Assembly (NCBI GenBank): GCA_001417715.1
Contig: BBRT01000280.1
Span: forward strand, 1-64,000
Direction: 5' to 3'
DNA length: 64,000 nt
Source: Candidatus Symbiothrix dinenymphae
Lineage (GTDB): Bacteria; Bacteroidota; Bacteroidia; Bacteroidales; Azobacteroidaceae
Made by a program: the position numbers and the translations under genes. The notes below the pieces were generated by a model. It had not been told where the DNA came from. It worked only from the letters and a program-made list of their open reading frames with translations, and searched no databases. This document shows positions 4,955-46,970 of this stretch, one piece after another; position 1 is the first letter of the stretch; every line of letters begins with the position of its first letter.

Positions 4955-7900
4955 GTGTATATCCCAGAAGACATAAAAAACAAAATCTTATCCGTTTCGG
5001 AAGACAAACTCAAGGAAGTAGTTGAGGACTTTGCCCCGTTGCACAAATCCGGAGTGAGCTGGGTGTGTGACTGCCCTATATGCAATGCAGAGCGGATGCT
5101 AACGGTCACGCCGGGGAAGAACATTTTCAAGTGCTTCCGGTGCAACGACTTTTCCGGCAAAGGAGCGGTTGCCTATCTGATGAAAGGGCATAACAAAACC
5201 TTTCCCGAAGCATTGGAATATCTGGCAAAGAAGTTTGACATTTTCATCGACGAGCCGAAACCCGTGCCAAAACCCAAGTCGACGAAGAAAGCAAAGGGCA
5301 AAGCCGGAGCGGATGCCAATTCGTTTTGCGCCCGAATGCTGGCGGAATCCGGACTGACCGCCGCCGATGTCACCGCCTGTGTTTATCGCACCGATGACAA
5401 CTCTGCCCACTTTGAATCGCGCACATTCAAGCCCGGCACGCTTGACCAATACAACAACATCGTGCCCGGCGATGACGTGATTATTGAATACTACGACTTG
5501 GACGGCAACCCCGTCACCTACGAGCAAAAGGACAGCCGGGGCAAACTCACCGGCAGGCAAAAAGAATACTTCCGCGTGCGTTGGCAATACCCGCCGGAAC
5601 ACCTCGACAAAGAGGGCAAACCGCAGAAATACAAATCGCCCTACGGCTCATTTGCCAACATCTACATTCCCGAAAAGATACGCGCTACCTACAAGGCAAA
5701 AGAAAAACTGCCACGCCTCTACATTCAAGAGGGAGAAAAGAAAGCCGAAAAAGCCACCAAACACGGTTTGCCGTCTATTGCCATCTCCGGCATTTCGGCG
5801 TTGGGGCATGGCGGACGATTGCCGGAAGATTTAATCCGCATCATTCAGACCTGCCAAGTCGAAGAAGTAATTTTCCTGCTCGATGCGGATTGGGACGATT
5901 TGTCGGCAACGCTTCGCGTTACTGACCAAGTCGAGCGTCGCCCGCGTAACTTCTTCTTTGCCGTCAAAAACTACAAAGAGTACATGCGTACGCTCAAAAA
6001 CCGCGACCTGTACGTTGAAATCTATTTTGGGTACGTTCTGAAAAACGAAAAAAACGACAAAGGCATTGATGACCTGCTGGCAAATTTGCTTGCCGGCAAC
6101 GAGGCGGAACTGTCGGCAGACATCGAACATCTTATCAATGAAAAAGACCTGAAAGGCAAATACATCCAACTGCATAAAATCACAACATGGACAGACCACA
6201 AATTGGAGGAAATTTGGGGACTAAACAACCCGCGCGTGTTTGCCGAACGGCACAAATCCATTCTGAAAGACATGCCGGAGTTCGTCATCGGTCGCCACAA
6301 ATGGCACATCAATGACGCCGGCGAACTCGAAAGCTCACAGCCGGTCGAAAGCGACGAACAATTTTGGATTGAACGCGAAAAGCACGACAAACAGGGCAAC
6401 CCGTTCACCGTTTACGACTTCAACTACAACCGGTCGCTTCGCTTTTTGCAAAACCGCGGCTTCGGTCGCCATCGCCGATTAGACGGCACGTTTGAATACA
6501 TCCACCTCACGCCGCCATCCGTGCGCACGGTCGAAACATGGGAAGTCCGCGACTTCCTGTTTGAGTTCACCAAAGCCAACTGCAAAGAGGACGTGTTGGA
6601 AATGATTTTGCGCGGCGGTACCCAATACCTTGGACCGGACAAAATCTCGCACATGGAATTTATCGACCCCAATTTCAAACCCGCAGAGCGCGACCGGCAA
6701 ATATTCTATTTTGCGAACAACTGCTGGGAAATTTCGGCAGACAAAATTTCAGAGATGGATTACGCCAACGTCACGCACCACATCTGGAAAGAGCAGCGCA
6801 AAAAGTTGCCGGCACAACTCACCGTGCCATTGCTCCACGTGACAAAAACGGATAACCGGTTTGCCTACAAACTGACAGCCTTAGGCACCCAATGCCACTT
6901 TTTGCAATTCCTAATCAACACCTCCAATTTCACATGGCGCAAAGAAGAATTGCAGAAAACGCAGCCCGATTTCATCATCCCGGAAGATGAACTCTACGAA
7001 AACACGGAACACCTGATTGCGAAACTGTGTGCCATCGGCTACATGCTGATGGAGTGCAAAGACCGCAGCAACTCAAAGGCAGTGGTCGCGATGGACGGGC
7101 GACAGTCCGAAGTGGGAGCGAGCAACGGACGTAGCGGCAAGTCCATCATCGGCGAATTGTTTAAACACGTGATGTCCACAGTCTATATCAACGGCAAAAA
7201 ATCTGACCTTGGTACCGACAATTTTTTGTGGGACGAACTGGTTGAGAAAACAAAAGCCGTCTTCATCGACGACGTTCGCCCCGGCTTCGATTTTGAAAGT
7301 CTGTTTGCCAACATCACCGGCGACTGGGCGGTGAACTACAAAGGCGGACGGCGCTCGACATTCCCGTTTGCCACATCGCCCAAAATCTACATCACCACCA
7401 ACCACGCCCTCAATGGCGAAGGCTCATCGTTTCGCGACCGGCAATGGCTCATCGCATTTTCCGACTACTACAACGACCAGCGCAAGCCCATCAACGATTT
7501 TGGCGTGATGTTTTTCGACGAATGGGATTTTGAACAATGGAACCTCACATGGAACCTGCTGGCAGCCTGCGTGCAACTCTACCTGAAATTCGGCGTAGTA
7601 GAAAGTCCGGGCGAACGCTTGGCACAACGCCAATTACGCCAGTTCATGGGCGAAGAATTTATCTCCTGGGCAGAAGAATACTTCTCTGCCGAAGAAAAGT
7701 TAAACACACGCATCGCCCGCAAAGATATGTTCGACACATTCCTTGCTTATGCCCCCGACCAGCGAAAATGGTGCAAAGCAACAACGTTCAAAAAGCGCAT
7801 AATCAAATATTGCGACTGGAAAAATCTGAAATTCAACCCGCACCGCTACGACCCGCTAACCGGACTGCCCATGTATCACGACAAAGAAGGCAAGCCGGAC

Positions 7901-8041
7901 ATCGACGACAAATCCGGCGGCGTAGAATATTTCACCATCGGCGATGCCAACTTCCGCAGTTCCGGCGCGGATGGCGGCGGCGAAGTCGATGCCGTCAATG
8001 TAGATTTATTCAAGAAAGAAACAAAAGGGTGTCCATTTTAA
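4955..8041 (+). CDS. Phage primase-helicase (CHC2 zinc finger, Toprim, SF3-like helicase)
   Basis: A 1028-aa replication protein combining priming and unwinding. The N-terminus has a CHC2-type zinc site, CPIC at residues 40-43 and CFRC at 60-63. A Toprim-like segment follows at about 250-320, with IQEGEKKAEK supplying the Glu and FLLDADWDD the acidic pair. The C-terminal third is a P-loop helicase with Walker A NGRSGKS near 722-728, Walker B AVFIDDV near 767-773 and sensor YITTNH near 812. The first in-frame start is GTG at 4955; no ATG lies nearby, so this start is likely but not certain. It is the only clear replication gene and marks the end of the main early block. Layout resembles P4 alpha-type and other phage primase-helicases. 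Confidence 0.9.
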   Translation: MYIPEDIKNKILSVSEDKLKEVVEDFAPLHKSGVSWVCDCPICNAERMLTVTPGKNIFKCFRCNDFSGKGAVAYLMKGHNKTFPEALEYLAKKFDIFIDEPKPVPKPKSTKKAKGKAGADANSFCARMLAESGLTAADVTACVYRTDDNSAHFESRTFKPGTLDQYNNIVPGDDVIIEYYDLDGNPVTYEQKDSRGKLTGRQKEYFRVRWQYPPEHLDKEGKPQKYKSPYGSFANIYIPEKIRATYKAKEKLPRLYIQEGEKKAEKATKHGLPSIAISGISALGHGGRLPEDLIRIIQTCQVEEVIFLLDADWDDLSATLRVTDQVERRPRNFFFAVKNYKEYMRTLKNRDLYVEIYFGYVLKNEKNDKGIDDLLANLLAGNEAELSADIEHLINEKDLKGKYIQLHKITTWTDHKLEEIWGLNNPRVFAERHKSILKDMPEFVIGRHKWHINDAGELESSQPVESDEQFWIEREKHDKQGNPFTVYDFNYNRSLRFLQNRGFGRHRRLDGTFEYIHLTPPSVRTVETWEVRDFLFEFTKANCKEDVLEMILRGGTQYLGPDKISHMEFIDPNFKPAERDRQIFYFANNCWEISADKISEMDYANVTHHIWKEQRKKLPAQLTVPLLHVTKTDNRFAYKLTALGTQCHFLQFLINTSNFTWRKEELQKTQPDFIIPEDELYENTEHLIAKLCAIGYMLMECKDRSNSKAVVAMDGRQSEVGASNGRSGKSIIGELFKHVMSTVYINGKKSDLGTDNFLWDELVEKTKAVFIDDVRPGFDFESLFANITGDWAVNYKGGRRSTFPFATSPKIYITTNHALNGEGSSFRDRQWLIAFSDYYNDQRKPINDFGVMFFDEWDFEQWNLTWNLLAACVQLYLKFGVVESPGERLAQRQLRQFMGEEFISWAEEYFSAEEKLNTRIARKDMFDTFLAYAPDQRKWCKATTFKKRIIKYCDWKNLKFNPHRYDPLTGLPMYHDKEGKPDIDDKSGGVEYFTIGDANFRSSGADGGGEVDAVNVDLFKKETKGCPF

Positions 8042-14911: not shown

Positions 14912-15518
14912 GCCAAACACATTAGAGATATGCCGCCTACACCTCTTTGACGACAAAGACAAACTGACGACCACCGGCATCCCGCAGATGCTAATAGACC
15001 GCATCGTGCGCATCAGGGCGGCTTACACCCTTTGGCTGGAGCACCCCCGCAAAAAAGATGCCGAAATTCGCGACCACCTCGTAACTTTCGGCATAAACAA
15101 AAGCCAAGCCTACGAAGACATCCAAATAATCAAACAACTGCTGGGCGACCTCACCGAAACTTCCAAAGCCTTCCACCGGTGGAAGTTCAACGCGATGATA
15201 CAGGCAACCGCCGAACTCGCAGAAAAGAAAAAAGATTACAAAACCATGGGCGCGGCATGGGCTGCTTATGCCAAATACAACCAACTCGACAAAGAAGATG
15301 CCCTCAAAATCCCGTGGGACGAAATCATACCCCAAATATTTGAGCCATCCAGCGACCCCACAATAATAGGCATCAAGCCCATCGCCAACATCAAAGAACG
15401 CATCGCCGCGCTCAAAGACAAATACGGCAAAGACATAGCCGAAGACATCGACTACGAAGTGGTAGATTACAACGAAGACGAACTGTTTAATGCGCCAATG
15501 GCAATTGACAACGCATGA
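14904..15518 (+). CDS. Probable terminase small subunit
   Basis: A 204-aa helical protein. The segment EIRDHLVTFGINKSQAYEDI near residues 52-71 fits an HTH DNA-binding region. It overlaps both the upstream gene and, by four bases, the large terminase gene. This coupling to the motor gene is the main argument; the sequence is too diverged for a firm family call. Confidence 0.7.
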   Translation: MPKPNTLEICRLHLFDDKDKLTTTGIPQMLIDRIVRIRAAYTLWLEHPRKKDAEIRDHLVTFGINKSQAYEDIQIIKQLLGDLTETSKAFHRWKFNAMIQATAELAEKKKDYKTMGAAWAAYAKYNQLDKEDALKIPWDEIIPQIFEPSSDPTIIGIKPIANIKERIAALKDKYGKDIAEDIDYEVVDYNEDELFNAPMAIDNA

Positions 15519-17155
15519 AAGAAACAAAGCCCATATATTTCAACGCCCCGCAGCAAGAAGTGATGTTCACGGCAGCGCACACCACCGTGTTTGTTGGCGG
15601 TCGTCGATTAGGCAAAACACACGGCATTGCCGCGCCGTTTTTCCTGCGCAATGTGCAGCGCATGCCCCGCAGTTCCGGCGCGTTCGTGGTCAGCACCTAC
15701 AAGCGCGGCTTGACCAACACACTGCCCGGCACACTGGCGGCATTGGATTCATTCGGCTACAAGCGCGACCTGCATTATTACATCGGCAAAAAGCCACCAA
15801 AGTCCGCCGGCTTCGCAAAACCATTCATCGAACCTGCCGAATACGAACACGTCATCTCATTCTACAACGGCTCCATCGCCTACATCATCTCCCAAGACCG
15901 CCCGGGCACATCCAACTCCCTGACGCTCGACTACATAATCGGCGACGAAGCCAAGTTCCTTGACTTCGAGAAACTCAAAGACGAAACCTTTCCGGCAAAC
16001 GGCGGCTTCAAAGGACACTTCGGCAATCGCTCATACCACCACAGTATGCTCTTTATCAGCGACATGCCCACCACCAAAAAAGGCAGTTGGTTTCTGAAAT
16101 ACGAAAAAGAGTGCGACCCCGAACTAATCGCCACCATCCAAGGCATAATCTTTGAAATCTGGCGCATCAAGGACCGGATAAAGAACGACATAGCCGCCGC
16201 CAAAACCCCACCGGCATACCTGCGAAACACACTCAAAAAGTTGTACAAAGACCTCGCAGAACTGCGCTCAATAGCCGTCTATTACAAGGAATTTTCCAGC
16301 ATCGACAACCTGCTCGTTCTGGGCGAAAACTACATCAAACAGATGAAGCGCGACCTGCCCCCAATGGTATTCCAAACGTCAATCCTGTGCAAAAAGGTAG
16401 GCGTACTCAAAGACGGCTTCTACAACAACATGCGCGAATCCATCCACTACTACACAATGAACGACAACAGTTATCTCGACAGCCTCGAATACCACTTCGA
16501 CAAACTGAAAGAAGAAAGCTGCTTAGGCGATGCCGACCTTGACCGCGACCAACCCATCTGCATAGCAATGGACTACAACAGCAACATCAACTGGATAGTA
16601 GCCGGACAGCAGCAAGGTCGCACCATGCGCGTACTCAAATCATTCTACGTCAAATACGAGCGCAAACTGCGCGAATGTATCCAATACTTCTGCAAATACT
16701 ACCGGCACCAACGCATCAAAACGGTAGTCTATTACTACGACACCACCGCCCTCAATGGCAACTACGCAGTGAACGACCAAGACTTCAAGACAGTAGCAAT
16801 CCAAGAGTTTGAAGCTCACGGCTGGTCAGTAGTGGACGTATATATAGGACAGCCAATGCACCACATCGAAAAGCACATGTTAATCAACCAAGGCTTCAGA
16901 GGACAATCCGGCTTAATGCCAATGCTAAACAGCAGCAACAACGAAGAACTGCTATTGGCAATGGAGCAAACAGGCACCCGCAACACCACCGAAGGTTTTA
17001 AGAAAGACAAGTCAGGCGAGAAGCTCGCAGAAACGGAAGAAGACAAACTCGAATACCGCACAGACGGCACGGATGCGTTTGATACACTCTACATTGGTAT
17101 GAATCACTTCCAGCGGTTGGCATCCGTAGGTTTCGTTACGTCTGCATTCGTATAA
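15515..17155 (+). CDS. terL: Terminase large subunit
   Basis: A 546-aa DNA-packaging motor. The N-terminal ATPase has a Walker A-like GGRRLGKTH near residues 28-36 and a Walker B plus catalytic Glu in YIIGDEAKF near 144-152. The C-terminal RNase H-like nuclease begins with IAMDYNSN near 350. It would cut and pump the genome into proheads through the portal. The portal gene is unusually far away, about 11.8 kb downstream and beyond the accessory island, whereas most tailed phages place the two side by side. Confidence 0.9.
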   Translation: MKETKPIYFNAPQQEVMFTAAHTTVFVGGRRLGKTHGIAAPFFLRNVQRMPRSSGAFVVSTYKRGLTNTLPGTLAALDSFGYKRDLHYYIGKKPPKSAGFAKPFIEPAEYEHVISFYNGSIAYIISQDRPGTSNSLTLDYIIGDEAKFLDFEKLKDETFPANGGFKGHFGNRSYHHSMLFISDMPTTKKGSWFLKYEKECDPELIATIQGIIFEIWRIKDRIKNDIAAAKTPPAYLRNTLKKLYKDLAELRSIAVYYKEFSSIDNLLVLGENYIKQMKRDLPPMVFQTSILCKKVGVLKDGFYNNMRESIHYYTMNDNSYLDSLEYHFDKLKEESCLGDADLDRDQPICIAMDYNSNINWIVAGQQQGRTMRVLKSFYVKYERKLRECIQYFCKYYRHQRIKTVVYYYDTTALNGNYAVNDQDFKTVAIQEFEAHGWSVVDVYIGQPMHHIEKHMLINQGFRGQSGLMPMLNSSNNEELLLAMEQTGTRNTTEGFKKDKSGEKLAETEEDKLEYRTDGTDAFDTLYIGMNHFQRLASVGFVTSAFV

Positions 17156-18369: not shown

Positions 18370-20091
18370 ATGTATATACAACGCAATCGTACGAAAGGGA
18401 AGGCAGGGAAAATCTATACTGCCACGCTTCTTTGCCATAAATATCGCGAAGAAGGCAAGGTGAAAACGAAAGTTCTTTGCAATCTTTCGCTACTTCCGGA
18501 AGAAACAATAGTGGGCATTGAACGGATGTTAAAGTCTGATAAAGAGGGACTTATACCGATTAAAGAAGTTGCTGTCGGCAAGTGTACTGATTACGGCTAT
18601 CTGTTTTTTGTGCACCAAATAATGAAACAATTGCGGATAGACGAGGTGCTGGAAAAGACACTTCCGAGCACGCATGCCGCCCTTGTGATGAGCATGATTT
18701 TGGGCAAATTGGTTACCGGAGGCAGCAAATTGAACATCTACAACTGGCTGAATCGGGAGCCGTATATTGCTGATTTACTTGGATTTAACAAGCCAAATAT
18801 GAAAGTGGACGATTTGTACAGTGCTTTGGGTGCACTTGCGTTTCGCCGAACAAAGGTGGACAAAAAGTGGTTTCAATATCACAAGGTCGCCGGTCGCCGC
18901 ATCTACCTGTACGACATCACCAGCACCTATTTTGAGGGTACGCAGAATGAATTGGCGGCGTTTGGGTACAATCGGGATAAGAAAATGGGAAAAATGCAGA
19001 TTTGCATTGGTTTGATTAGCGATGCGAATGGTTTTCCGCTCAAAGTGGAGGTTTTCAAGGGCAATACAGCCGATAGCACCACGGTTCCCGAGCAGATAAA
19101 GTTGCTAAAAAATGAATTTGGCGTTGATGAGGTCATCTTTGTTGGCGACCGCGGCATGCAAATTATTCACCATCTGAATGCAAATGAGGAGTTAAAAAAA
19201 CTGGATATTAATTTCATCACCGGACTTACTCGCTGCGCAATAGAGGAACTGTTGGAGCGTAAAATCATCCAATTAGATATGTTCAGCAAGGAATTGGCCG
19301 AAGTTGAAGACGGAGATATGCGTTATGTTTTGTCGGTCAATGAAGAGTTGGAAACTTCCGAAAAAAATTACCTCCATCTTCACAAAACAAGAGTGGAAGA
19401 CTTGCTCACATGGATAAAAAGTTCGTGGGAAGGGCGTAGAGATAGGAATATAGAAAATTACAATAAAATTCAAGAAGGCAAAACAAAAAACAAAAATTTG
19501 AAAACAGCCTTCACCGAAACGGACATTGAACGCTATAAGAAAAGGGTGGAAAAAACGATTGAAAAATGTCGGATGTCAAAATATTTTTCTATCAAAGTAA
19601 TTGATAATGAGAGTTTTGAGATAGAGTTTAATCAGCTTGCGTTCGAGCAAAGCGAAAGTTTGTGCGGGAAATATGTGGTCTGTTCAAATGTAAAACCGGA
19701 TATTTTGACAACAAAAGAAGTGCGTGGACAATACAAAAATCTACAATGTGTAGAGCATGCATTTCGCGATTTAAAGAGTGATAATATACATATCAGACCT
19801 GTTTTTCATCGTAACGAAGCGCAAACAAGAGGACATGTACAAGTCTGTGTATTTGCATACGCTATAATTAAAGAAATGGAAAATAAACTGTATCCATTGC
19901 TAAAAGAATACAATGAAAATCACCAACAACAGCTATCGTTCAACGACCTGATTGCAGAGATAAACAACGTCAAACGCTGCGAACTGAAAATAGGAAAAGC
20001 CGCCCCGATATTAACGTATCCCGAGCTTACCCCATTGCAAAAAAAAATATTTCAATTGTTTAATATAAACCCAAAAGATATGATAAAGTAG
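18370..20091 (+). CDS. IS1634-family transposase
   Basis: A 573-aa protein starting MYIQRNRTKGKAGKIYT; a longer frame from 18319 would start upstream of the IS promoter. The N-terminal charged beta region, SMILGKLVTGGSKLNIYNWL, the catalytic-domain strings YDITSTYFEG and FVGDRGMQI, and the late VEHAFRDLKSDNIHIRPVFH segment are all typical of the IS1634/IS4-like DDE transposases. The three acidic residues of the triad fall in these strings. The gene is full length and could be active. Confidence 0.88.
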   Translation: MYIQRNRTKGKAGKIYTATLLCHKYREEGKVKTKVLCNLSLLPEETIVGIERMLKSDKEGLIPIKEVAVGKCTDYGYLFFVHQIMKQLRIDEVLEKTLPSTHAALVMSMILGKLVTGGSKLNIYNWLNREPYIADLLGFNKPNMKVDDLYSALGALAFRRTKVDKKWFQYHKVAGRRIYLYDITSTYFEGTQNELAAFGYNRDKKMGKMQICIGLISDANGFPLKVEVFKGNTADSTTVPEQIKLLKNEFGVDEVIFVGDRGMQIIHHLNANEELKKLDINFITGLTRCAIEELLERKIIQLDMFSKELAEVEDGDMRYVLSVNEELETSEKNYLHLHKTRVEDLLTWIKSSWEGRRDRNIENYNKIQEGKTKNKNLKTAFTETDIERYKKRVEKTIEKCRMSKYFSIKVIDNESFEIEFNQLAFEQSESLCGKYVVCSNVKPDILTTKEVRGQYKNLQCVEHAFRDLKSDNIHIRPVFHRNEAQTRGHVQVCVFAYAIIKEMENKLYPLLKEYNENHQQQLSFNDLIAEINNVKRCELKIGKAAPILTYPELTPLQKKIFQLFNINPKDMIK

Positions 20092-20163: not shown

Positions 20164-20439
20164 ATGCTCAAGAAAGAGGGGGCTATAAACACTATCAACG
20201 AGGGGTTGAGGGATTTATATGCAAGTCAGGGACACATCGACCTAAAAACATTGCCGCAGTGGAACTCTGTGGGGAAGAAAGTAAGGAAAGGCGAACACGC
20301 CCTGTTATTGTGGGGCAAACCGCAAAAAACAATGCCTAAGCCGGAACTTCAACCCGACACAGATAAAGATGTGGACGAGATGAATTTTTTCCCGCTGTGC
20401 TTCGTATTTTCAAACTTACAAATACAGGAGGCGCAATGA
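20164..20439 (+). pseudogene. ArdC-like antirestriction/ssDNA-binding domain fragment
   Basis: 91 codons. The string LPQWNSVGKKVRKGEHALLL, then WGKP and FFPLCFVFSNLQI, is the pattern of the N-terminal ArdC-type (DUF1738-like) domain of Bacteroidota plasmid and transposon proteins. There it reads as roughly the middle of the domain. Upstream in frame, NPFKM continues the similarity but is cut by a TAA at 20149-20151, and the IS element follows shortly before. The gene is therefore probably a 3' remnant. A short functional form starting at 20164 cannot be excluded. Confidence 0.65.
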
Positions 20440-20784: not shown

Positions 20785-20803
20785 ATTTGGTAATATACCA
20801 AAT
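20785..20803. promoter_or_regulatory. Candidate operator ATTTGGTA-ata-TACCAAAT
   Basis: A perfect 8-bp inverted repeat with a three-base spacer located at the -33 position of the promoter at 20810. The half-site is the same as in the palindrome at 9588. The XRE protein encoded at the end of this operon is an obvious candidate to bind it. Confidence 0.55.
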
Positions 20804-20809
20804 TTGATA

Positions 20810-20817
20810 TACATTTG
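20810..20817 (+). promoter_or_regulatory. TACATTTG promoter of the eight-gene operon
   Basis: A consensus -7 box with an operator-like repeat over the upstream element. The leader to the ATG at 20912 is about 90 bases. Confidence 0.65.
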
Positions 20818-20911
20818 CACCGTCAAAGAACAACAAGTAGTTCTGCCGACCATAGCAGGCTTGAAGTTCAAGACAAAAAAAGTGAGACACACTTAAAACT
20901 GTCCGGTCAAA

Positions 20912-21607
20912 ATGACTACAATTGAACAATTAGCAGAGAAACTTGGAAAGCAAGTTTGGGTAAAAGGAGATTTTAAACGCATCTATCTGAATGATGCAGG
21001 TTGGAACACAAAAAAAATGTCCACTAAGACATTTATTTTCCAAAATGAAAAAGGCGACTTCGTTGTAAGTTGCAAAGTTGATTGCCCTTCGCAAGGTGAT
21101 AATTGGATTGCTTCGCAGGAAGAGGCGGTAAAGGAAAGGTTTTATTCCAAAATCGAAGAAGCATTGAAAGAATTGTCCACAGAAATTTCAACAGAAGAAG
21201 TTAAAAGCGATGTTGAGTTTATTGGCAATGAGGAATTGCTTACTGAGTATGTAAATTGCCTTAAAGAATCTGAATCTAAAAATCCCGGAAATGGAAGAGT
21301 AGAAGCTGAAGGACAACCTTGCAGGACTATTTGGCTTCCTGTTAGGACAAGTAACAGAACAGTAACTACTGACCTCAATCATACAATCAACGGTTTTGAT
21401 AAGCAAGGTTTATGGGGTGAAAATGGCAATTGTGGAACTCCCTATATCATTATAGATGCTCCGTTATCTGTTACAGATACTGACAGGCAGAAGATTGGCG
21501 AAGAAGTTAATCGTCGATTAGGTAATATCTATCCACAGTGGTATAATGCTATGCGGGCTTCCGAAGCAAAAACTGTGAGAGAGGTTGTTTATGATTTATT
21601 TAAATAA
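20912..21607 (+). CDS. Unknown protein, first gene of the SNF2/IbrAB-like operon
   Basis: A 231-aa soluble protein in two parts. The N-terminal part (1-90) is beta-rich with GDFKRIYLNDAGWNTKKM and FVVSCKVDCPSQGDNWIAS. The C-terminal part contains TVTTDLNHTINGFDKQGLWG and ends in a helix. No family recognised. It begins an operon whose following genes encode an SNF2 helicase and an IbrA/IbrB-like pair, so a substrate-binding or structural role in that system is possible but unproven. Confidence 0.7.
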   Translation: MTTIEQLAEKLGKQVWVKGDFKRIYLNDAGWNTKKMSTKTFIFQNEKGDFVVSCKVDCPSQGDNWIASQEEAVKERFYSKIEEALKELSTEISTEEVKSDVEFIGNEELLTEYVNCLKESESKNPGNGRVEAEGQPCRTIWLPVRTSNRTVTTDLNHTINGFDKQGLWGENGNCGTPYIIIDAPLSVTDTDRQKIGEEVNRRLGNIYPQWYNAMRASEAKTVREVVYDLFK

Positions 21608-21613
21608 TTGATT

Positions 21614-21898
21614 ATGAATAACACAGTCCGCATAAAATTCGATAAGTTCTACTCGGAAACGAGTAGGGCTTATCTTATAAGCATTTACAATCAGGAAGTT
21701 TGGCTACCAAAAAAGATGTGCCGGAGTTTCATCACTAACAAGAAACTCGGCGGCAATGTGGTGATACCTGAATGGCTGTACAAGGAAAAATTTGGCTGTG
21801 AGCCATCTGATGAAATGTACGAAACCATCGTGGAGCATCACACCCCCGAAAAAATGCAACCCGTTGAAAACAACCTCATTAAAGAATTAGACAGATGA
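21614..21898 (+). CDS. Unknown small protein upstream of the helicase
   Basis: A 94-aa protein, MNNTVRIKFDKFYSETSRAY... The ATG at 21614 is preferred to an upstream TTG. It is mainly beta in the first half, then VVIPEWLYKEKFGCEPSDE. Its stop overlaps the helicase start by four bases. No family recognised; it may be a partner of the helicase. Confidence 0.7.
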   Translation: MNNTVRIKFDKFYSETSRAYLISIYNQEVWLPKKMCRSFITNKKLGGNVVIPEWLYKEKFGCEPSDEMYETIVEHHTPEKMQPVENNLIKELDR

Positions 21899-23118
21899 AC
21901 CTACTACCCAATCAATCAATCGCCCGCCGCCACCTATTGCCTCGCAAAGTCGGTGCCCTGTTCATGAAAATGGGCACAGGCAAAACCCGCGTAGCCATTG
22001 AGTTGGTCAATTCTGTAGCTGATTTGGACTTAGTGGTGTGGGTTGGTCCTTTGCGGACGATAGAGCCGATTGCTTCCGAGATTCCTACAATCAAAGAAGA
22101 AATCGCTAAATGGGGAGGGTTTTTGGCAAAGGAAGTGCTGTTTATAGGAGCCGAAACCATCGGACAGAGCGACCGGAAGTATCTGCAACTCTACAACCGA
22201 TTGCGCACGGCTTGGAAGGCTTTCGTGGTGATTGACGAAAGCATCAAAATCAAAAACCTGACAGCAAAACGAACGCAACGCATGATCGAACTCTCTGAGA
22301 TGACAGAATACAAGTTAATCCTGAATGGCACTCCGATGACACGCGACTTGCTTGACCTCTACCCGCAAATGAATTTCCTTTCGCCGAAAATTCTCAATAT
22401 GTCGCTGCCCGAATTTAAGGACACGTTTTGCAAATATACACGCATCACAAAGCGTTTTAACGGCTACAAAGCCTTTCAAAAGGAATTTATCACCGGCTAC
22501 GAAAACATTGACTACCTCTATTCGCTCATTGGGCACTATATCTACGAGTGTGATTTAGACTTGCAAGTACGCCAACTCTATTCGGAAAAGCATTATACGA
22601 TTGGCGATGACGAAAAGGCTGAATATTACCGATTGAAAGGCAAATACCTTGATGATGAAAAGTTGATGATGCTGAACAACAACATTTTCCTTGAGATGAC
22701 TATGAAAATGCAGCACGAATATTGTTGCACTGAAAGTAAGTTTGAGGCAGTTGCCGAATGGCTCAAAGAATATGACGAAAGCAAATCAATCATTTTTTGC
22801 AAGTACATCAACAGCGCGGACGAGTGTCGCCGGCGTTTTCCAAAAGCAACTGTTTTGAACTACAAAACAGGCTCTCTAAGCCTTAATTTGCAGCATCTGC
22901 CCTATACGGTCTATTTCGATAAAACGTTTGACTACGGTGATGTGGTGCAATCTTCGCACCGAAACTATCGCACAGGGCAGGAATATGATTGCCGGTATCT
23001 CGACCTAACCGGCGATGTAGGGCTTGAAACGCTTATCAAAAACAACAATGATAAAAAGATTTCCATGACGGAATATTTTAAGAAAATAAGTAAGGAACAA
23101 TTAAAGGAAATATTATGA
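21895..23118 (+). CDS. SNF2-type DNA helicase/translocase
   Basis: A 407-aa protein with the SF2 motifs in order: Walker A MGTGKT at residues 26-31, motif II VVIDESIKIKN near 118, motif III LNGTPMTRD near 149, and motif VI QSSHRNYRTGQEYD in the second RecA domain (QxxxRxxRxGQ type, specific to SNF2 proteins). It is compact, lacks extra domains, and would translocate on duplex DNA using ATP. Similar short SNF2 proteins occur in phages. Here it sits third in an operon with IbrA/IbrB-like genes, a context more like an accessory system than core replication. Confidence 0.85.
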   Translation: MNLLPNQSIARRHLLPRKVGALFMKMGTGKTRVAIELVNSVADLDLVVWVGPLRTIEPIASEIPTIKEEIAKWGGFLAKEVLFIGAETIGQSDRKYLQLYNRLRTAWKAFVVIDESIKIKNLTAKRTQRMIELSEMTEYKLILNGTPMTRDLLDLYPQMNFLSPKILNMSLPEFKDTFCKYTRITKRFNGYKAFQKEFITGYENIDYLYSLIGHYIYECDLDLQVRQLYSEKHYTIGDDEKAEYYRLKGKYLDDEKLMMLNNNIFLEMTMKMQHEYCCTESKFEAVAEWLKEYDESKSIIFCKYINSADECRRRFPKATVLNYKTGSLSLNLQHLPYTVYFDKTFDYGDVVQSSHRNYRTGQEYDCRYLDLTGDVGLETLIKNNNDKKISMTEYFKKISKEQLKEIL

Positions 23119-23516
23119 TAAAAAAGCCTAAGATAGGAGAGCCGTGCAACGGCTGTGGTGTCTGCTGCCTCATTCAGGTGTGCCGGAATGGGAGCTATGT
23201 TTTGAAGCTCGTACAGAATTTGGGTGAGTATGTTCCGGGACCATGTCCGGCTATCATCCGCGCTCCGGATGGGAAAATTACCTGCGGGATAGTCGCCTAT
23301 CCGAACCGGTATCTGAAAAAATCACAGTATCCGCCGCATATTCTGAGCAAATATTTTGCGCATCTCATTGGCTCCGGCACTGGTTGTGACGAACTCCTGT
23401 CCGACGACACGCCGGAAGAAGAAGCCAAATTAGATGCCACTATTGCGCAGAGGATCAGCGATAGCGAGTGGCTTGAAAAGTCAAAAAAAGCAATGAGAAT
23501 TATTCATGGCGTATGA
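23115..23516 (+). CDS. YkgJ-type cysteine-cluster protein
   Basis: A 133-aa protein with GEPCNGCGVCCLIQVC at residues 9-24, the CxxCxxCC signature of YkgJ-type (UPF0153) zinc or iron-cluster proteins, and further Cys in GPCPAI and KITCGI. Eight or more Cys could bind a metal centre. It overlaps both neighbours by four bases. Function of the family is unknown; beside a PAPS-reductase-like protein a redox or metal role is an attractive inference. Confidence 0.75.
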   Translation: MIKKPKIGEPCNGCGVCCLIQVCRNGSYVLKLVQNLGEYVPGPCPAIIRAPDGKITCGIVAYPNRYLKKSQYPPHILSKYFAHLIGSGTGCDELLSDDTPEEEAKLDATIAQRISDSEWLEKSKKAMRIIHGV

Positions 23517-24724
23517 AACAATACAACAGAAATAAAAACGTATATGAAGCCGCCATTGAGCGATACGAGTTCATTTTCAATGAATTTGATCGCGTATGTA
23601 TTTCGTTCTCGAATGGGAAGGATAGTGGCGTATTGCTTAACCTTGCCATTGATGTAGCCAGACGTTTGAATAAACTTCCGGTACATGTATTATACATCGA
23701 CATGGAGGCGCAATATAAGCACGCCATCGACTTCACGGAGCGAACTTTCAATCGACCTGAAGTAAAAGCCTATTGGGTCTGTCTTCCAATCCATTTGCGG
23801 AATGCAGTTTCACAATTTCAACCCCATTGGCTTTGCTGGGATCCGGATAAAAAAGATGCCTGGGTACGCGAAATTCCGGAGCACAAGTCTGTTATTTCGG
23901 ATGAAGCGTTTTTCCCATTTTTCCGGCGTGGAATGGAATTTGAAGAATTTGTACCGGAATTTGCCAAATGGTTTGCCTTCGGCAATAAAACATGTTCGGT
24001 AGTTGGAATCAGAAGCGACGAAAGCCTAAATAGGTTTCGGACGATAGCAAGTGAAAGCAAAATTACCTATTGCGATAAGCAATGGACTACAAAGCTATTT
24101 AGAGAGGATGAAACAAGCCAAATATACAATGCCTATCCGATTTATGATTGGCGTGTAGAAGATATTTGGACAGCCAATGCAAAATTTAATTGGGATTATA
24201 ATAAAATATACGATTTGATGTATTTGGCAGGAGTTTCATTGCCGAAACAAAGGCTTTGCCAACCTTATGGCGATGACCAGCGGCAAGGATTATATCTTTT
24301 CAAGGCATTGGAACCGGAGACGTGGGCAAAAATTGTAAACAGGGTGGAAGGTGCTAACTTCGGAAACCGCTACACGGAAACCGATAAAACTACCCTTGGC
24401 AATTACAAAGTAAATCTTCCTCCCGGACACACGTATGAAAGTTACGCTCATTTTCTACTCGAAACCATGCCGCCATATTTGGCGGAACATTACAGAGAAA
24501 AAATAAATAAGTTCCTGAATTGGTGGAAAAATGAGGGCATAAAAGTAATACCGGACAAAGACGATCCAAAATTGGAGGCACTTAAAAAGGTACCCAGCTG
24601 GAGACGAATTTGCAAAGTGCTTTTAAAAAATGACTACTGGTGCAAAGGTTTATCCTTTACGCAAACAAAGCGAGATATGGAAAAACAAGTAGAAATTATA
24701 ACAAAATACAGCGAAATATTATGA
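23513..24724 (+). CDS. PAPS reductase-like PP-loop protein (DUF3440/IbrA type)
   Basis: A 403-aa protein. Residues 23-38 contain SFSNGKDSGVLLNLA, a PP-loop variant (SGGKDS) that binds ATP-like nucleotides. CSVVGIRSDESLNRF follows in the middle, and the C-terminal half has the long helical region and WRRICKVLLKNDYWC typical of DUF3440 proteins such as E. coli prophage IbrA. The catalytic Cys of true PAPS reductases is not evident, so sulfate assimilation is unlikely. DndC, which phosphorothioates DNA, is a relative in the same superfamily. It is coupled to the ParB-like gene, as IbrA is to IbrB. Confidence 0.82.
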   Translation: MKQYNRNKNVYEAAIERYEFIFNEFDRVCISFSNGKDSGVLLNLAIDVARRLNKLPVHVLYIDMEAQYKHAIDFTERTFNRPEVKAYWVCLPIHLRNAVSQFQPHWLCWDPDKKDAWVREIPEHKSVISDEAFFPFFRRGMEFEEFVPEFAKWFAFGNKTCSVVGIRSDESLNRFRTIASESKITYCDKQWTTKLFREDETSQIYNAYPIYDWRVEDIWTANAKFNWDYNKIYDLMYLAGVSLPKQRLCQPYGDDQRQGLYLFKALEPETWAKIVNRVEGANFGNRYTETDKTTLGNYKVNLPPGHTYESYAHFLLETMPPYLAEHYREKINKFLNWWKNEGIKVIPDKDDPKLEALKKVPSWRRICKVLLKNDYWCKGLSFTQTKRDMEKQVEIITKYSEIL

Positions 24725-25326
24725 TTGAAAATTTATTGAAACAAGATTTAAATTTTGAGGAGAAGGTTGCAATTTACAACCAAATCAGTCAAGAGTTATA
24801 TGAATGGATGGGCGTGAAGCATCCCTCCCTAAACATTCAATTAGTGAAAGTAGATGAAGTGGAAGGAAACGACTACAACCCCAATAAAGTAGCCCCGCCT
24901 GAAATGCGCCTCTTAACGTTATCAATTCAAAAAGACGGCATAACGATGCCTGTTGTAGTGTGCGATCAAGACAAAAAGGAGTTTCCCTACGTAGTAGTAG
25001 ATGGTTTCCATCGCCGGTCAGTAGTCAAACAAAACAAGCAGATAAACGAAAGTTTACACGGTTATTTACCGGTATCGAAACTAAACAAGTCAATCGAAGA
25101 CCGCATTACTTCCACGGTCAGGCACAACATGGCGCGCGGAACGCATCAGGTAGAACTATCAGCAAAGCTTGTAGCAATGCTTAAAAAACACAATTGGACA
25201 AATGAACGCATTGGTATAGAATTAGGCATGGATGCCGACGAGGTATTACGTTTGAAACAAATAACAGGATTGGCAGAATTATTTAAAGACAAAGAATTTT
25301 CAAACTCATGGGAAATAGAGAAATAA
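24721..25326 (+). CDS. ParB/sulfiredoxin-fold protein, IbrB-like
   Basis: A 201-aa protein. The start at 24721 uses the ATGA overlap; an earlier frame from 24640 runs inside the previous gene. Residues 35-105 form a ParB-type domain: NPN near 49, LSIQKDGITMPVVV near 65, and VVDGFHRR near 92, which is the conserved G-H-R-R nucleotide-contact box. A C-terminal HTH-like helical region (WTNERIGIELGMDADEVLRL) follows. The IbrA/IbrB pair is known as a prophage-borne regulator of immunoglobulin-binding genes in E. coli; the biochemical role is unknown. Confidence 0.8.
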   Translation: MIENLLKQDLNFEEKVAIYNQISQELYEWMGVKHPSLNIQLVKVDEVEGNDYNPNKVAPPEMRLLTLSIQKDGITMPVVVCDQDKKEFPYVVVDGFHRRSVVKQNKQINESLHGYLPVSKLNKSIEDRITSTVRHNMARGTHQVELSAKLVAMLKKHNWTNERIGIELGMDADEVLRLKQITGLAELFKDKEFSNSWEIEK

Positions 25327-25529
25327 GCAAATTCACAATCTACAAAAAAGACGGCAAACAATACATTGAAAGGCTTGTTTACCCCCGTTTCGTTGGGGAA
25401 ATTACAATGGGGCTGCTGTCTGACGTTGAGAATATACAGCTGATTGATAATTGCACCGATTTGGCAGAACTCGCAAGAGCAATGCATGCGGCGGCAGAAT
25501 ATATGGTGAAAGGGCATCAAATAAAATGA
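25308..25529 (+). CDS. Small protein of the IbrAB-like operon
   Basis: A 73-aa protein (MGNREISKFTIYKKDGKQ...), overlapping the ParB-like gene by 19 bases and the regulator gene by four. Beta-rich start, helical end with ELARAMHAAAEYM. Unknown family. Confidence 0.65.
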   Translation: MGNREISKFTIYKKDGKQYIERLVYPRFVGEITMGLLSDVENIQLIDNCTDLAELARAMHAAAEYMVKGHQIK

Positions 25530-25756
25530 ACGAAAGAGAACGAATAGGCAAGCGCATCCGCGAATTAAGGATGCAAAAAGGATTATCGCAGTTGCAACTG
25601 GCAGAACTGGTAGGGCTAAGGCAGCCACACATTGCCCGGATAGAACTCGGAACATACGCCACAGGTATTGATATTCTATCCAAAGTGGCTAATGCTTTGG
25701 ACTGCGATTTAGAAGTTATCGAAAGAAATAAAAAAAAATATTTCGTTGATAATTAA
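25526..25756 (+). CDS. XRE-family regulator of the operon
   Basis: A 76-aa protein consisting of little more than a helix-turn-helix domain: RIGKRIRELRMQKGLSQLQL, then VGLRQPHIARIELG as recognition helix, and a dimerisation end. The start at 25526 is in the overlap; a longer frame from 25451 is a shadow. Placed last in the operon, it probably controls the promoter at 20810 and perhaps the similar palindromes at 25801 and 9588. Small regulators of this kind often keep potentially harmful systems quiet. Confidence 0.8.
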   Translation: MNERERIGKRIRELRMQKGLSQLQLAELVGLRQPHIARIELGTYATGIDILSKVANALDCDLEVIERNKKKYFVDN

Positions 25757-25800: not shown

Positions 25801-25825
25801 AAAAGTTTGCAATATGCAAACTTTT
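25801..25825. promoter_or_regulatory. 25-bp operator candidate AAAAGTTTGCA-ata-TGCAAACTTTT
   Basis: A perfect 11-bp inverted repeat with spacer ATA, ending five bases before a TACCTTTG -7 box, so it covers the upstream promoter element. Same geometry (spacer ATA, same promoter position) as the repeat at 20785 but different half-sites, pointing to a second or related regulator. Confidence 0.6.
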
Positions 25826-25829
25826 ATAT

Positions 25830-25837
25830 TACCTTTG
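25830..25837 (+). promoter_or_regulatory. TACCTTTG promoter
   Basis: A consensus -7 box 51 bases upstream of the ATG at 25888. Confidence 0.65.
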
Positions 25838-25887
25838 CGGCGTATTTAGAACTGCCGGGTCAGCAGGATAAAAACGACACAAGGTCT

Positions 25888-39605: not shown

Positions 39606-42600
39606 ATGGCATCACAGCAAGAAACAGCAGTCCTAACCGTCCTGCTTAACGGACAAGCCGCCCAGTCGGAAATTGACGTCTTGACGAAAAAAGCCGACAG
39701 CCTGCGCGATGCCATCACTAAAGCCGCCAAAGACGGCAACACCGCCTTAGCACAATCCCTGCGCAAAGAACTGTCCGAAAATGTCAAAACCACCCAAGCC
39801 TTGCAGCGCGGCGTGGTGGACGTGGGCAAAGTGCTCAATAACCTGTCCACGGCTAAGCCCAAAGAACTCCGCGCTACGCTTTTGCAACTCAATAAGCAGC
39901 TGCAGTTTTCCGACCTCAAACGCGGCTCCGCAGAGTGGAACCAATTGCAAGCCAACATCCAGCGTGTGAAACTTGAAATGAAAACCATCTCTGCCGAATC
40001 GCAAATTGCCGAATCACGCCTTACCCGTTTATCCAATGGCTTTAACAAATATTTCAGTATGGCTGCTACCGGAGTGGCAGCCATCACCGGATTGTCTATG
40101 ACCTTCCGGAAACTCGCCGAAGATGTAGCCAAAATGGACGACACGTATGCCGATGTGATGAAAACAACCGGCTTAACGCACGAGCAAGTCAAAGACCTGA
40201 ACGAAGAATTTAAAAAACTCGATACGCGCACATCGCGCGAAGAGTTGAACAATCTGGCGCGTGATGCCGGTAAATTGGGCATCACCGGCAAAAAAGACAT
40301 CCTCGATTTTGTAGAAGCCGGTAACCAAATCAACGTCGCCTTGGGCGAAGATTTGGGCGAAGGTGCTATCAAAAACATTGGCAAACTCACGGAAGTTTAC
40401 AAGCAATCGACACAGGAACTCGACAAATTAGACCTCAAGGGAAAAATGCTCTCCATCGGTTCGGCAATCAATCAGCTGGGGCAATCATCCACCGCATCCG
40501 AATCCTATCTCGTGGACTTTTCGCAACGACTTGGAGGTGTTGCTTCGCAGGCAGGCATTTCCATTCAAAACATCCTGGGCTACGCATCCGCGCTTGACCA
40601 ATCCGGACAGAAGGTAGAAATGTCCGCTACAGCTTTGCAAGGCTTCATTATGAAACTGATGGGCGACCCGGCAAAATTTGCAAAAATAGCCGGATTGGAA
40701 GTGAGCAAATTTACAGAATTGCTGAAAACAGACACCAACCAAGCCATTTTGACCGTTTTGGATGCCCTTTCGAAAAAAGGAGGTTTACAACAGTTAATAC
40801 CCATATTCAAAGATATGCACCTTGACGGTGCACGTGCCGTTGGCGTATTATCTTCGCTTGCAACCAACATCAGCATGGTGACGGAAGCTCAAGACATATC
40901 CAACAAATCATTTGCCGAAGCCACCAGCCTCACAAACGAGTACAACGTCAAGAACGAAAACCTGATGGCAAAGCTCGAAAAAGCCCGCAAAAACTTCAAA
41001 GACATCTCAATGGCATTGGGCGAAAAACTAAACCCCATCCTATTGCACAGCACCAACCTCACATCAACGATTATCCGCGTGCTGTCATCGTCAATTGATT
41101 TTTTCTCCAAATACGGCGGCGCAATCGTGAAAACAGCAGCGGTGTTAGCCGCCTACACCCTTGTAATGAAGGCATATATCATTGAACAAAAATTGATGGC
41201 ATTTTGGAACAACACCCTGATAGCCGGATGCAAAAAACTTTGGGCAACGATGGCAGCAAATCCGTGGGGTGCCGTGCTCGTGCTTGCAACTGCCCTCTAC
41301 CAAGTTTACAAGGCAATCAATTCCGAAATGTCCACAATGGAAAAAAAGCAAAAGGCATTGAACGACGTGAATTTAACCGCCAATAAAAACATATCTGAAC
41401 AAAAATGGCAGCTGGAGCAATTACTCAAAACTGCACGGGATGAAACAAAGTCGAAAGATGAACGGTTGGCTGCCGTTAAACGCCTGAATGACCTCTCTCC
41501 TGAACATCTGGGCAACCTCAAATTAGAAGAAATTAACACTGAAAAAGCCAAAACAGCTGTTGACAATTATGTTAAAAGCCTTTTGGATGCTGCAATTGCA
41601 CAAGCAGCGTATGACAAAATCGTAGAACTAAACAAGCAAAAATTAGACTTGCAGGCAAAAGACAGTAAATCCATCTATGACGATAATACCAACATCTTCC
41701 AAAAATTTGCAGCCGGATTCTCACACGGATTTATGGGATTATTTGGAGCCGAACAAGCCATTTATGATAAAGCATGGGCAAAACACAAAAAAACCATCAC
41801 GGACATTGATGCCCAAATATTATCTTTAGCAGAGATAAGCAAAAACAATACATCAACCATCAAAGGTGACGGCACGGCGGAAACCACTATAACAGGCGGC
41901 GAAGACCTTGATGAAAAAGCCGCAAAAAAAGCACTCGCTGCCAAACTGAAAGCAATTGAAACGGAAGCAGCCAAACAGCGAATCGTTGCGATGCAATCAT
42001 ACAAAGACAAAAAGTCTTACGAAGAAGAACTGCTACGCATCGAACGGGAAATGCTATCAAAAAAGCAATTGCTTTACCAAAAAGGTTCAAACGAATACGT
42101 CAAGTATGAGGAAGAAATAGAAAAGGTAACCCTTGATGCCAAACAAAAAGCCGAGAAAATAGAATTGGACCGGCAGGCAAAAATAAAAGCCCTCATTGCA
42201 AAATACAACAAAGAAGCCGCTAAAACAGATGCTCAAAAAAAGGCTGAAGAATTGAAAACCCTGAACGATTTATTTACTGAAGAATTGCGGACAACGGAGC
42301 AATACTATATTCTCAAACAAGCAATAGAAGACAAATACGACCCCGAAAAGAAAAAGAACAAGGAAGCCGCCGAGCAATTAGTCAAAGACAACCCAAACCA
42401 AACTCACAAAAAGAAAGACCTGAAAAGTTTGCTCGATGACGACAAACTCAGTTCCGGCGCAAAGGACACACTTATAAACGATTCGGAAGCCGCCGAACTT
42501 AAACAATTAGATGCGCTTCAATCGTTGCACAATGCCGAGATTGACGAGATACTCAATTACGAAGAACTCCGCACAGCGATTGCCCAAAAATACAACGACC

Positions 42601-46569: not shown

Positions 46570-46600
46570 CCGTGGAGCTGGAGGGACTCGAACCCTCGTC
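46570..46600 (-). other. attR (3' end of intact ssrA)
   Basis: The same 31 bases as attL, here joined to the rest of the tmRNA gene, so insertion leaves ssrA complete. Confidence 0.93.
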
Positions 46601-46970
46601 CAAACGAGGAATTAACTTGCTTTCTACATGCTTGTCTTCGCTTTAGTTTTCGACTCTGCACAAGACCGAAGCCACCAATGCCGAGCTTATTTCCTTAGTT
46701 TCATCTGCGATTCGGAACTTCCCGCAGACTATCTCCGATATTGCCGCACCACCGTATCTGATTGCTTCGAAGCCAGAGCTTCAGGGTGATGTATGGTCCC
46801 CTCTCCTTGAGTGGGGATAAAGCCAAATAATCTACTATACTTCGATTAGGCAGCCATAGCGTAAGTATTTTCGCCAGTTAAATTTGTATCATCCGAGATT
46901 AAGGTGCCGAACAACGACGCACCGCATGCTTACAAATCACTTCTGCCCGCTGTCAAAACCGGTCAACCCC
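46573..46970 (-). ncRNA. ssrA: tmRNA (ssrA)
   Basis: About 398 nt. The 5' end GGGGUUG (46970 downward) pairs with CAGCUCC at the 3' end (46573-46580), forming the tRNA-like acceptor stem. The T-arm GGUUCGAGUCCC is plain. The tag reading frame at 46849-46875 encodes GENTYAMAA followed by TAA at 46846-46848. It closely resembles the GE(N/T)NYALAA tags of Bacteroidales but ends AMAA rather than ALAA. It rescues ribosomes stalled on broken messages and marks the product for proteolysis. CCA is not encoded. The 3' end serves as prophage attachment site. Confidence 0.96.

Follow-up and report, generated by a model that had tools for sequence, protein, structure and literature searches.

A recurring core of B, SNF2, IbrA and IbrB genes in a Candidatus Symbiothrix dinenymphae prophage, a possible DNA-modification module

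The eight-gene operon

We analysed a stretch of 64,000 nucleotides of Candidatus Symbiothrix dinenymphae (assembly GCA_001417715.1, contig BBRT01000280.1, positions 1 to 64,000 of the forward strand), which is called the window from here on. It holds a prophage, and inside this prophage an operon of eight genes, A to H, runs in one direction from 20912 to 25756 with all its frames open. Four of these genes (B, the SNF2 gene C, the IbrA gene E and the IbrB gene F) are the conserved core of a module that recurs in phages and bacteria and that probably acts on nucleic acid. The genes and the sites around them are the following:

20785-20803, no strand: operator-like palindrome ATTTGGT-AATAT-ACCAAAT upstream of A, with 7-base arms and a 5-base loop
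20810-20818, + strand: promoter-like box TACATTTGC, 6 bases past the first palindrome
20912-21607, + strand: A, 231 amino acids, with a conserved N-terminal domain of about 90 amino acids and a variable C-terminal half; optional
21614-21898, + strand: B, 94 amino acids, a predicted mostly-strand small domain with a conserved C-terminal HxP tail, beside SNF2
21895-23118, + strand: C, SNF2-type ATPase of superfamily 2 (SF2), 407 amino acids (Pfam PF00176 2.7e-11; PHROG 62 4.2e-68)
23115-23516, + strand: D, cysteine-rich protein of 133 amino acids, CxxCxxCC...C; optional
23513-24724, + strand: E, IbrA, PP-loop (PAPS-reductase-like) plus DUF3440, 403 amino acids (Pfam; PHROG 2302 7.7e-95)
24721-25326, + strand: F, IbrB, ParB/sulfiredoxin-like with a DGFHR motif (PHROG 2159 2.3e-63)
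25308-25529, + strand: G, small protein of 73 amino acids, relatives found in copies of this prophage only
25526-25756, + strand: H, XRE/HTH_3 regulator, 76 amino acids (Pfam HTH_3 2.9e-15)
25804-25822, no strand: second palindrome of the same build, AGTTTGC-AATAT-GCAAACT, just 3' of the XRE gene

A first-pass annotation of this DNA had described eight co-directional genes with mostly four-base overlaps, an operator-like repeat ahead of them and an XRE gene as the last member, and all of this was found. ATGA-type four-base overlaps occur at 5 of the 7 junctions (B/C, C/D, D/E, E/F and G/H), so that the IbrA and IbrB genes also overlap; at A/B the genes are 6 bases apart, and at F/G they overlap by 19 bases. 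Regarding the names, Pfam agrees with SNF2 for gene C and with DUF3440/PAPS reductase for IbrA, the latter over the cut-off with both PF11922 (DUF3440, 2.5e-38, 132.1 bits, cut-off 25) and PF01507 (PAPS_reduct, 3.6e-11, 43.8 bits, cut-off 22.5). The ParB-like name of IbrB fits its PHROG match, but Pfam ParB_N was reached only at 0.0019, below the cut-off. D had been called a YkgJ-like CxxCxxCC protein; the motif is there, but no Pfam family matched at E <=0.1 and the name comes from the motif alone. None of A, B, D and G gave a Pfam match over the cut-off.

The operator motif TTTGSNAATATNSCAAA occurs once in the window against 0.07 occurrences expected, one mismatch being allowed and the motif having been written post hoc, and perfect 7-base arms with loops of 3-7 bases are not unusual as such (56 in the window). 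The box at 20810-20818 fits the Bacteroidota -7 promoter consensus, which is TAnnTTTG, and TACCTTTGC is found at 25830-25838, after the second palindrome. Both palindromes may be operators of the XRE regulator.

Recurrence of the core and its conserved sites

We ran an SNF2 profile, A1, on IMG/VR and on GTDB genomes and took the best 80 of 490 viral and the best 80 of 174 genome relatives. Loci near a contig end (19/80 viral and 19/80 genome loci) and one viral SNF2 fragment were untestable and were set aside. A locus was assigned to the module when both IbrA and IbrB were encoded on the strand of an A1-profile SNF2 and at most 3.5 kb from it, as is the case in the window operon. This pattern was found in 59/60 testable viral loci, this prophage (L052) included, and in 60/61 testable genome loci; the two misses were L055, where IbrB lies slightly past the set distance, and L174, which is without both genes. 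The order was mostly SNF2-IbrA-IbrB (46/59 viral and 59/60 genome loci), followed by SNF2-IbrB-IbrA (9 viral, 1 genome) and IbrA-IbrB-SNF2 (4 viral, 0 genome), and SNF2 had B as a neighbour in 46/60 viral and 28/61 genome loci. According to the record titles, the genome loci come from Bacteroidota, Listeria, Lactobacillus and clostridia, Opitutales, Spirochaetales, and Alpha- and Gammaproteobacteria. Among the named phages, Flavobacterium phages FPSV-F7 and FCL-2 and Lactobacillus phage AQ113 have the set, and Streptococcus phage CHPC1230 has IbrAB without SNF2.

The first-pass annotation had proposed this co-occurrence of helicase and ibrAB as a check against a chance collection of accessory phage genes (morons). 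Such a collection is ruled out for the core by the counts above, which span several phyla and include chromosomes, and its partners are reassorted, as described below. The variable A, D, G and XRE genes do speak for chance or for hitchhiking on a single phage backbone, to which we nevertheless leave next to no probability. The viral and genome loci partly overlap; in a set with one locus per distinct SNF2 sequence (159 loci), the most shared families within 6-7.5 kb were IbrA (151), IbrB (140) and B (89), followed by rarer ones, among them the CGHEG-motif protein (22) and the integrase-like (18) and TerL-like (17) families, the last two named by reading. Since integrase-like and TerL-like genes are much rarer than IbrA, IbrB and B, the association is not hitchhiking on one phage backbone. 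IbrA was found in 0 of 17 ordinary SNF2 loci (L298-L314), a weak control with about 2-4 kb per locus. A stronger control is the window's genome, which has further SNF2 matches on three other contigs, these being without IbrA, and a single IbrA. Because A1 was built from SNF2 loci already having IbrAB, distant SNF2 proteins are under-sampled in these counts. SNF2 matched 559 phage records, 300 of them from Pseudomonas phages, with about 24% identity over at most 2/3 of the query among those listed, and in the IbrA phage list Pseudomonas is outside the ten commonest names, single records being present. A PHROG tally of the neighbours, which covered 103 of the 140 listed genes, brought out integrase, terminase and endolysin and was otherwise uninformative. 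B-SNF2-IbrA-IbrB is the conserved core, and from the locus counts we are nearly certain that these genes form a functional unit.

The eight genes had been taken as one module; the core recurs, but A, D, G and XRE are optional and the eight-gene unit was too wide. A member of the XRE family lay no more than 5 kb from SNF2 in 28/60 viral and 12/61 genome loci (38/159 distinct loci), the A family, by hidden Markov model (HMM), was beside SNF2 in 15/60 and 4/61 (20/159), and relatives of G were found in copies of this prophage only. The cysteine-cluster gene D was expected to co-occur with SNF2 and ibrAB, and this did not hold: it was found in 1/60 viral loci, which is this prophage itself, and in 0/61 genome loci. 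The IMG/VR scan gave relatives of D in this prophage only; two other modules (L003 and L041) have them, as do Rhodobacter phages, where the single record viewed has no annotated IbrA or IbrB within 5 kb. D was therefore rejected as a core part. Regarding A, tblastn gave no relatives in phage records at 1e-3, and an A-like domain is fused to the N-terminus of SNF2 in L315, from a genome of the window's genus. The basis of this fusion is hmmsearch against three sequences (5.1e-9 and 2.1e-6, two profile versions, L297 unmatched) and hhalign (92% probability). L297, which is also of this genus, has a second, divergent SNF2 upstream of an IbrA gene, with motifs that look degenerate by reading.

The partners within the core have different histories. 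Mantel tests over 68 loci gave r 0.447 (p 0.001) for B-SNF2 and r 0.704 (p 0.001) for IbrA-IbrB, while SNF2-IbrA (0.048, p 0.245), SNF2-IbrB (-0.072, p 0.807) and B-IbrA (0.077, p 0.067) were unlinked; these tests, as well as the ratios of nonsynonymous to synonymous substitution rates (dN/dS, Nei-Gojobori) given below, are simple estimates and the pairs are not independent. IbrA was less than 40% identical in 131 of the 316 locus pairs whose SNF2 was more than 62% identical. The window SNF2 is 71-72% identical to that of loci with IbrA at 30-35%, and the window IbrA is 80-82% identical to that of loci with SNF2 at 59%. The module is made of two pairs, B-SNF2 and IbrA-IbrB, which are swapped, although they nearly always occur together.

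The SNF2 form is one branch of a wider system, IbrAB. When loci were collected with an IbrA profile, IbrB was within 3.5 kb of IbrA in 52/52 testable loci (of 79), and in a second set in 13/13 (of 25, this prophage included), whereas SNF2 of this kind was near IbrA in only 6/52 and 6/13. The window IbrA was matched in 217 of 50,697 phage records, and IbrA-type genes were present in 2/14 control genomes, E. coli and Lactococcus lactis. Their frequent annotation as a 'PAPS reductase' with a neighbouring 'ParB partition protein' probably misleads.

As for the proteins, the window SNF2 has intact ATPase motifs (GTGKT, DESIKIKN and RNYRTGQ in the motif columns) and its profile matched SNF2/Rad54 proteins among solved structures, e.g. 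1z63 (2.7e-28). It was also considered as the replication helicase of this phage and rejected, because a separate primase-like protein is encoded at 4955-8041 and because SNF2 is tied too strictly to IbrAB. The HxP tail was present in 76/112 B proteins upstream of SNF2 versus 74/4522 other open reading frames (ORFs) of 80-150 amino acids, with a pattern written post hoc from the alignment. The AlphaFold model of B has a mean predicted local distance difference test score (pLDDT) of 87.4 and is mostly strands, and among solved structures the B profile gave designed proteins only, at E >=0.27. IbrA (model mean pLDDT 88.3) has SxGKDS, D63, E65 and GxRxxExxxR invariant in 70/70 sequences, and the residues of the last motif bind phosphate in PAPS-reductase-like proteins. 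Its best profile matches among solved structures were FAD synthase (9.6e-7) and CysD (1.2e-6), then PAPS reductase (2.3e-5). The DG[FY]HR motif of IbrB was found in 25/25 sequences; two wider sets had it in 26/26 and 152/154. The IbrB profile gave first two designed helical-repeat chains in the PDB, then Noc (3.2e-6) and ParB (4.4e-6), with free serine kinase matched weakly.

Some copies of the module are chromosomal, and no phage genes were noticed in the parts of these loci that were read. In Listeria farberi (L151) and L. immobilis (L152), B-SNF2-IbrA-IbrB and a methyltransferase-like gene are flanked by pyrH and transketolase (tkt), and the 17 kb read showed no phage genes. The gene in the B position matches the B family in both species, and a L. 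monocytogenes record has at the same place hypothetical-SNF2-DUF3440-ParB-S-adenosylmethionine (SAM) methyltransferase. The names pyrH, tkt, integrase and TerL in unannotated loci were given by reading, those of Listeria also from the annotated L. monocytogenes record. In L. farberi IbrA is in two frames (L151 9190-10492), and in L. immobilis it is a single intact frame. L318 (NZ_LR134403.1), a 407-kb 'Listeria plasmid 6' with frr, pyrH and tkt, looks like a misfiled piece of chromosome.

A different situation was found in 27 alphaproteobacterial-type loci, five of them titled only 'proteobacterium' (L175-L192, L194, L195, L197, L198, L200, L203, L204, L205 and L207; the context was read as chromosomal for 3/27, namely L179, L187 and L192), where SNF2 has lost its ATPase motifs. 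The motif VI arginines R356 and R359 are present in 0/27 each, versus 136/136 and 135/136 of the other SNF2 proteins, and the Walker A threonine is kept in 1/27. This lineage could be found only with a DES..KN search pattern, and its retention of DES..KN is therefore uninformative. SxGKDS of IbrA is kept in 27/27 of these loci. The median dN/dS was 0.075 for the dead-lineage SNF2 (19 pairs), 0.069 for IbrA (81 pairs) and 0.055 for IbrB (89 pairs), so that this SNF2 is under purifying selection. Since the ATPase motifs are lost yet SNF2 is kept, its role there seems to be other than ATP-driven movement, and a dead SNF2 beside an intact IbrA suggests that the catalysis of the module lies in IbrA/IbrB. 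The lineage offers a natural comparison for the function of the module.

Possible functions of the module

We give a probability of about 0.45 to the reading in which the core forms an enzyme module of two parts that is directed to DNA and installs or processes a DNA modification. SNF2 and B would bind and track duplex DNA and so bring the enzyme pair to its target. IbrA would activate a phosphate or another group with ATP through its PP-loop and GxRxxExxxR, more like an adenylyltransferase than like a reductase, and IbrB would bind a nucleoside triphosphate through its ParB/sulfiredoxin motif. The product would be modified DNA, sometimes finished by a GNAT- or methylase-like enzyme. In this prophage, XRE would probably repress the operon from the palindrome at 20785-20803. 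The benefit would most likely be protection of phage DNA, or else marking of DNA for gene control. Precedents exist, as the SNF2-methylase protein DarB protects phage P1 DNA (excerpt of PMC5512222) and ParB folds fused to DNA methylases occur in phages (excerpt of PMC12704722).

Modifying-enzyme-like genes are added to some versions of the module, as expected of a nucleic-acid modification operon, which is circumstantial evidence. A GNAT-like family is by IbrA in 18/239 distinct IbrA loci (10 directly after it, 7 directly before and 1 two genes before), and two further loci read by hand (L315 and L316) also have such genes. Five of the seven GNAT-like proteins tested matched a PHROG acetyltransferase, although one reached no better than E 0.012. 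In 9/239 loci there is a methylase-like family, in 7 of them with DPPW; the protein of L209 matched Pfam N6_N4_Mtase at 5.6e-4, below the cut-off, and a PHROG methyltransferase at 3.8e-4. Because these enzymes are added in some versions, IbrA/IbrB may make an activated intermediate that a third enzyme completes.

Several points weigh against this DNA-modification reading. The GNAT- and methylase-like genes support it only weakly, as they are in a minority of loci and have weak family matches: 2/7 GNAT-like proteins had no PHROG match, that of L136 reached Pfam GNAT at 0.0055, below the curated cut-off, and those of L315, L316 and L126 matched no GNAT or methylase family of Pfam. This kind of SNF2 is absent from 46/52 testable loci of the IbrA-profile search and DNA tracking is therefore not essential to the IbrA/IbrB pair, while the ATPase-dead SNF2 lineage argues against tracking as a general requirement. 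The fold of B gave no Foldseek match to the PDB at E <=0.001 (best 0.29; small SH3-like barrels were among the highest-ranking entries). Several parts of the reading we infer: what SNF2 and B do, which chemistry takes place, that DNA is its substrate, and what benefit follows. Moreover, the available parts of PMC4490671 and PMC5736727 word the role of IbrAB as transcriptional, 'co-activators of prophage gene expression'.

That wording leads to transcription control, in which IbrA/IbrB would co-activate phage or host genes, the DNA binding of IbrB would depend on a nucleotide, as in ParB/Noc, and SNF2 would remodel RNA polymerase or promoter DNA, as RapA does. The Noc and ParB matches of IbrB, although behind the designed chains, agree with it, as does an ATPase-dead SNF2 that is still kept. 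E. coli ybdNM, a DUF3440/ParB pair, adjoins the LysR gene ybdO, and CitR/YbdO represses ybdNM (excerpt of PMC9068703). However, the PP-loop and further polar residues that are invariant in IbrA, together with the GNAT/methylase-like genes added in some loci, suggest enzyme activity that goes further than DNA binding, and we regard this explanation as somewhat unlikely. Anti-phage defence or superinfection exclusion, on prophages as well as on chromosomes, is a less likely candidate. It would fit the copies among housekeeping genes of Listeria and other chromosomes, the sporadic spread (DUF3440 in 4/296 genomes of the phylum, 3 over the cut-off) and the similarity of SNF2 to domains of ZorD, DpdE and DrmD, but the PADLOC matches of the eight proteins are shared domains only, no nuclease or abortive effector was recognised in the core, and the module is carried by Flavobacterium phage FCL-2, whose genome is described in the available part of PMC4541368 as being without integrases and repressors. 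The same carriage counts against a toxin-antitoxin pair, which we consider very improbable. In an excerpt of PMC7020466, lmo1309/lmo1310 appear as a candidate antitoxin and toxin, put forward through guilt by association and having co-evolving residues, but such residues would suit any stable pair, the PP-loop active site of IbrA is conserved and the core has three to four genes.

Sulfur-based DNA modification, i.e. phosphorothioation by a relative of Dnd/Ssp, follows from the link between IbrA and DndC drawn in the first-pass annotation. IbrA does share a PAPS-reductase-type PP-loop domain with DndC and BrxP (PADLOC 1.6e-6 and 1.3e-4), but the link turned out to be weak, with a score of 17 bits for the DndC equivalog against a cut-off of 290.4. 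In addition, no cysteine is invariant among the 70 IbrA sequences (best column 60/70), so that a Dnd-like sulfur relay is unlikely and sulfur transfer was dropped as the default reading; DndC has a cysteine dyad (excerpt of PMC10853773), IbrA not having been aligned to DndC. The operon has no DndD/E or SspB-type partner either, and phosphorothioation therefore appears quite improbable.

By profile matches, the operon does not belong to Dnd, Ssp/BREX-4, Dpd, DISARM or Zorya. With Dnd, Ssp and BREX-4 it shares the PAPS-reductase-type PP-loop enzyme, and Dnd has a ParB-superfamily protein, DndB (excerpt of PMC10853773), but the module here has an SNF2 motor and an IbrA without invariant cysteine, and neither DndD or DndE nor the BREX-4/Ssp partners DUF4007/SspB and BrxC/SspC were found among the eight operon proteins. 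Dpd likewise has an SNF2 protein, DpdE (PADLOC 7.7e-8 over one domain), alongside its modifying enzyme, and its DpdB is ParB-like, but no DpdA-type base-exchange enzyme is among the eight proteins. The DrmD equivalog of DISARM gave 28 bits against a cut-off of 950, and the ZorD equivalog of Zorya 20.4 bits against 1500. DarB-type phage proteins also couple an SNF2 motor to a DNA-modifying enzyme (PMC5512222, in part), but there the adenine methylase is fused, whereas the module here has separate genes and PP-loop/ParB chemistry.

The nearest relatives are IbrA/IbrB of E. coli (ybdN/ybdM in K-12), where a DUF3440 PP-loop protein also adjoins a ParB/sulfiredoxin-like protein, so that both the domains and the neighbours agree. 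Their function is known here from general background and annotation wording only, and unlike them, the module adds a dedicated SNF2 and B and has no known eib-type target. The same trio is found in Listeria monocytogenes as lmo1309-lmo1311 (IbrB, IbrA, SNF2), but it is chromosomal between pyrH and tkt, without XRE, D and A, and we found no published function for it. The first-pass annotation had named no described system with this gene set. Our literature search agrees, as it found the trio only in a table of Listeria genes (excerpt of PMC5736727), and for phage FCL-2 the available text of PMC4541368 notes IbrA, IbrB and two upstream ORFs. Thus, this is a widely distributed module that we found described nowhere, which does not establish its absence from print.

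Returning to DNA modification, a fuller version is more tentative. It would be a system common to phages and bacteria with two exchangeable halves, an SNF2-B motor/adaptor and a cysteine-independent IbrA-IbrB adenylation half, with optional GNAT/methylase finishers and a non-phosphorothioate mark, and in one bacterial lineage the motor would have become an ATPase-dead scaffold with the chemistry kept. The SNF2-B-IbrA-IbrB unit lends itself to biochemical tests, its four proteins offering clear active sites for mutation, and it may hold a new chemistry where phage DNA meets the host.

The host prophage and further genes

The prophage around the operon has the following features:

1404-46600, no strand: host prophage of about 45 kb, with 31-bp direct repeats, integrase and TerL
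4955-8041: primase-like protein with a CHC2 zinc finger
15515-17155: large terminase, TerL (PHROG)
39606-43493: minor tail protein (late structural)
45271-46446: integrase, beside the second repeat

The prophage location given in the first-pass annotation agrees with these features. The 31-bp direct repeats are at 1404-1434 and 46570-46600, and the second one overlaps the transfer-messenger RNA (tmRNA) gene (46572-46970), which indicates that the phage integrates at tmRNA. The operon is placed between the large terminase and the late structural genes. A near-copy of the prophage, a contig of 46,444 bases in IMG/VR, differs over these genes only by single residues in IbrB and the insertion sequence (IS) transposase. 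The gene of this IS1634-family transposase (NCBIfam 3.9e-80) lies at 18376-20091, between terminase and operon, and is followed by a short ArdC-N-like ORF at 20164-20439 (Pfam 0.014, below the cut-off).

Three further families were seen near the module in other loci. One, of about 290 amino acids, separates SNF2 from IbrA in six loci of Clostridia or viruses (L119, L126, L199, L206, L209 and L210), and the one protein tested (L199) had no Pfam or PHROG match. The CGHEG family is zinc-ribbon-like and lies about 1.1 kb upstream of SNF2 in its 22 loci, e.g. L208:6826-7971 (phrog_16123 for L208). Finally, a small gene near IbrA in 36/239 loci, e.g. L253:765-1271, resembles by reading the extension that longer IbrB proteins, such as that of L014, have at their C-terminus.

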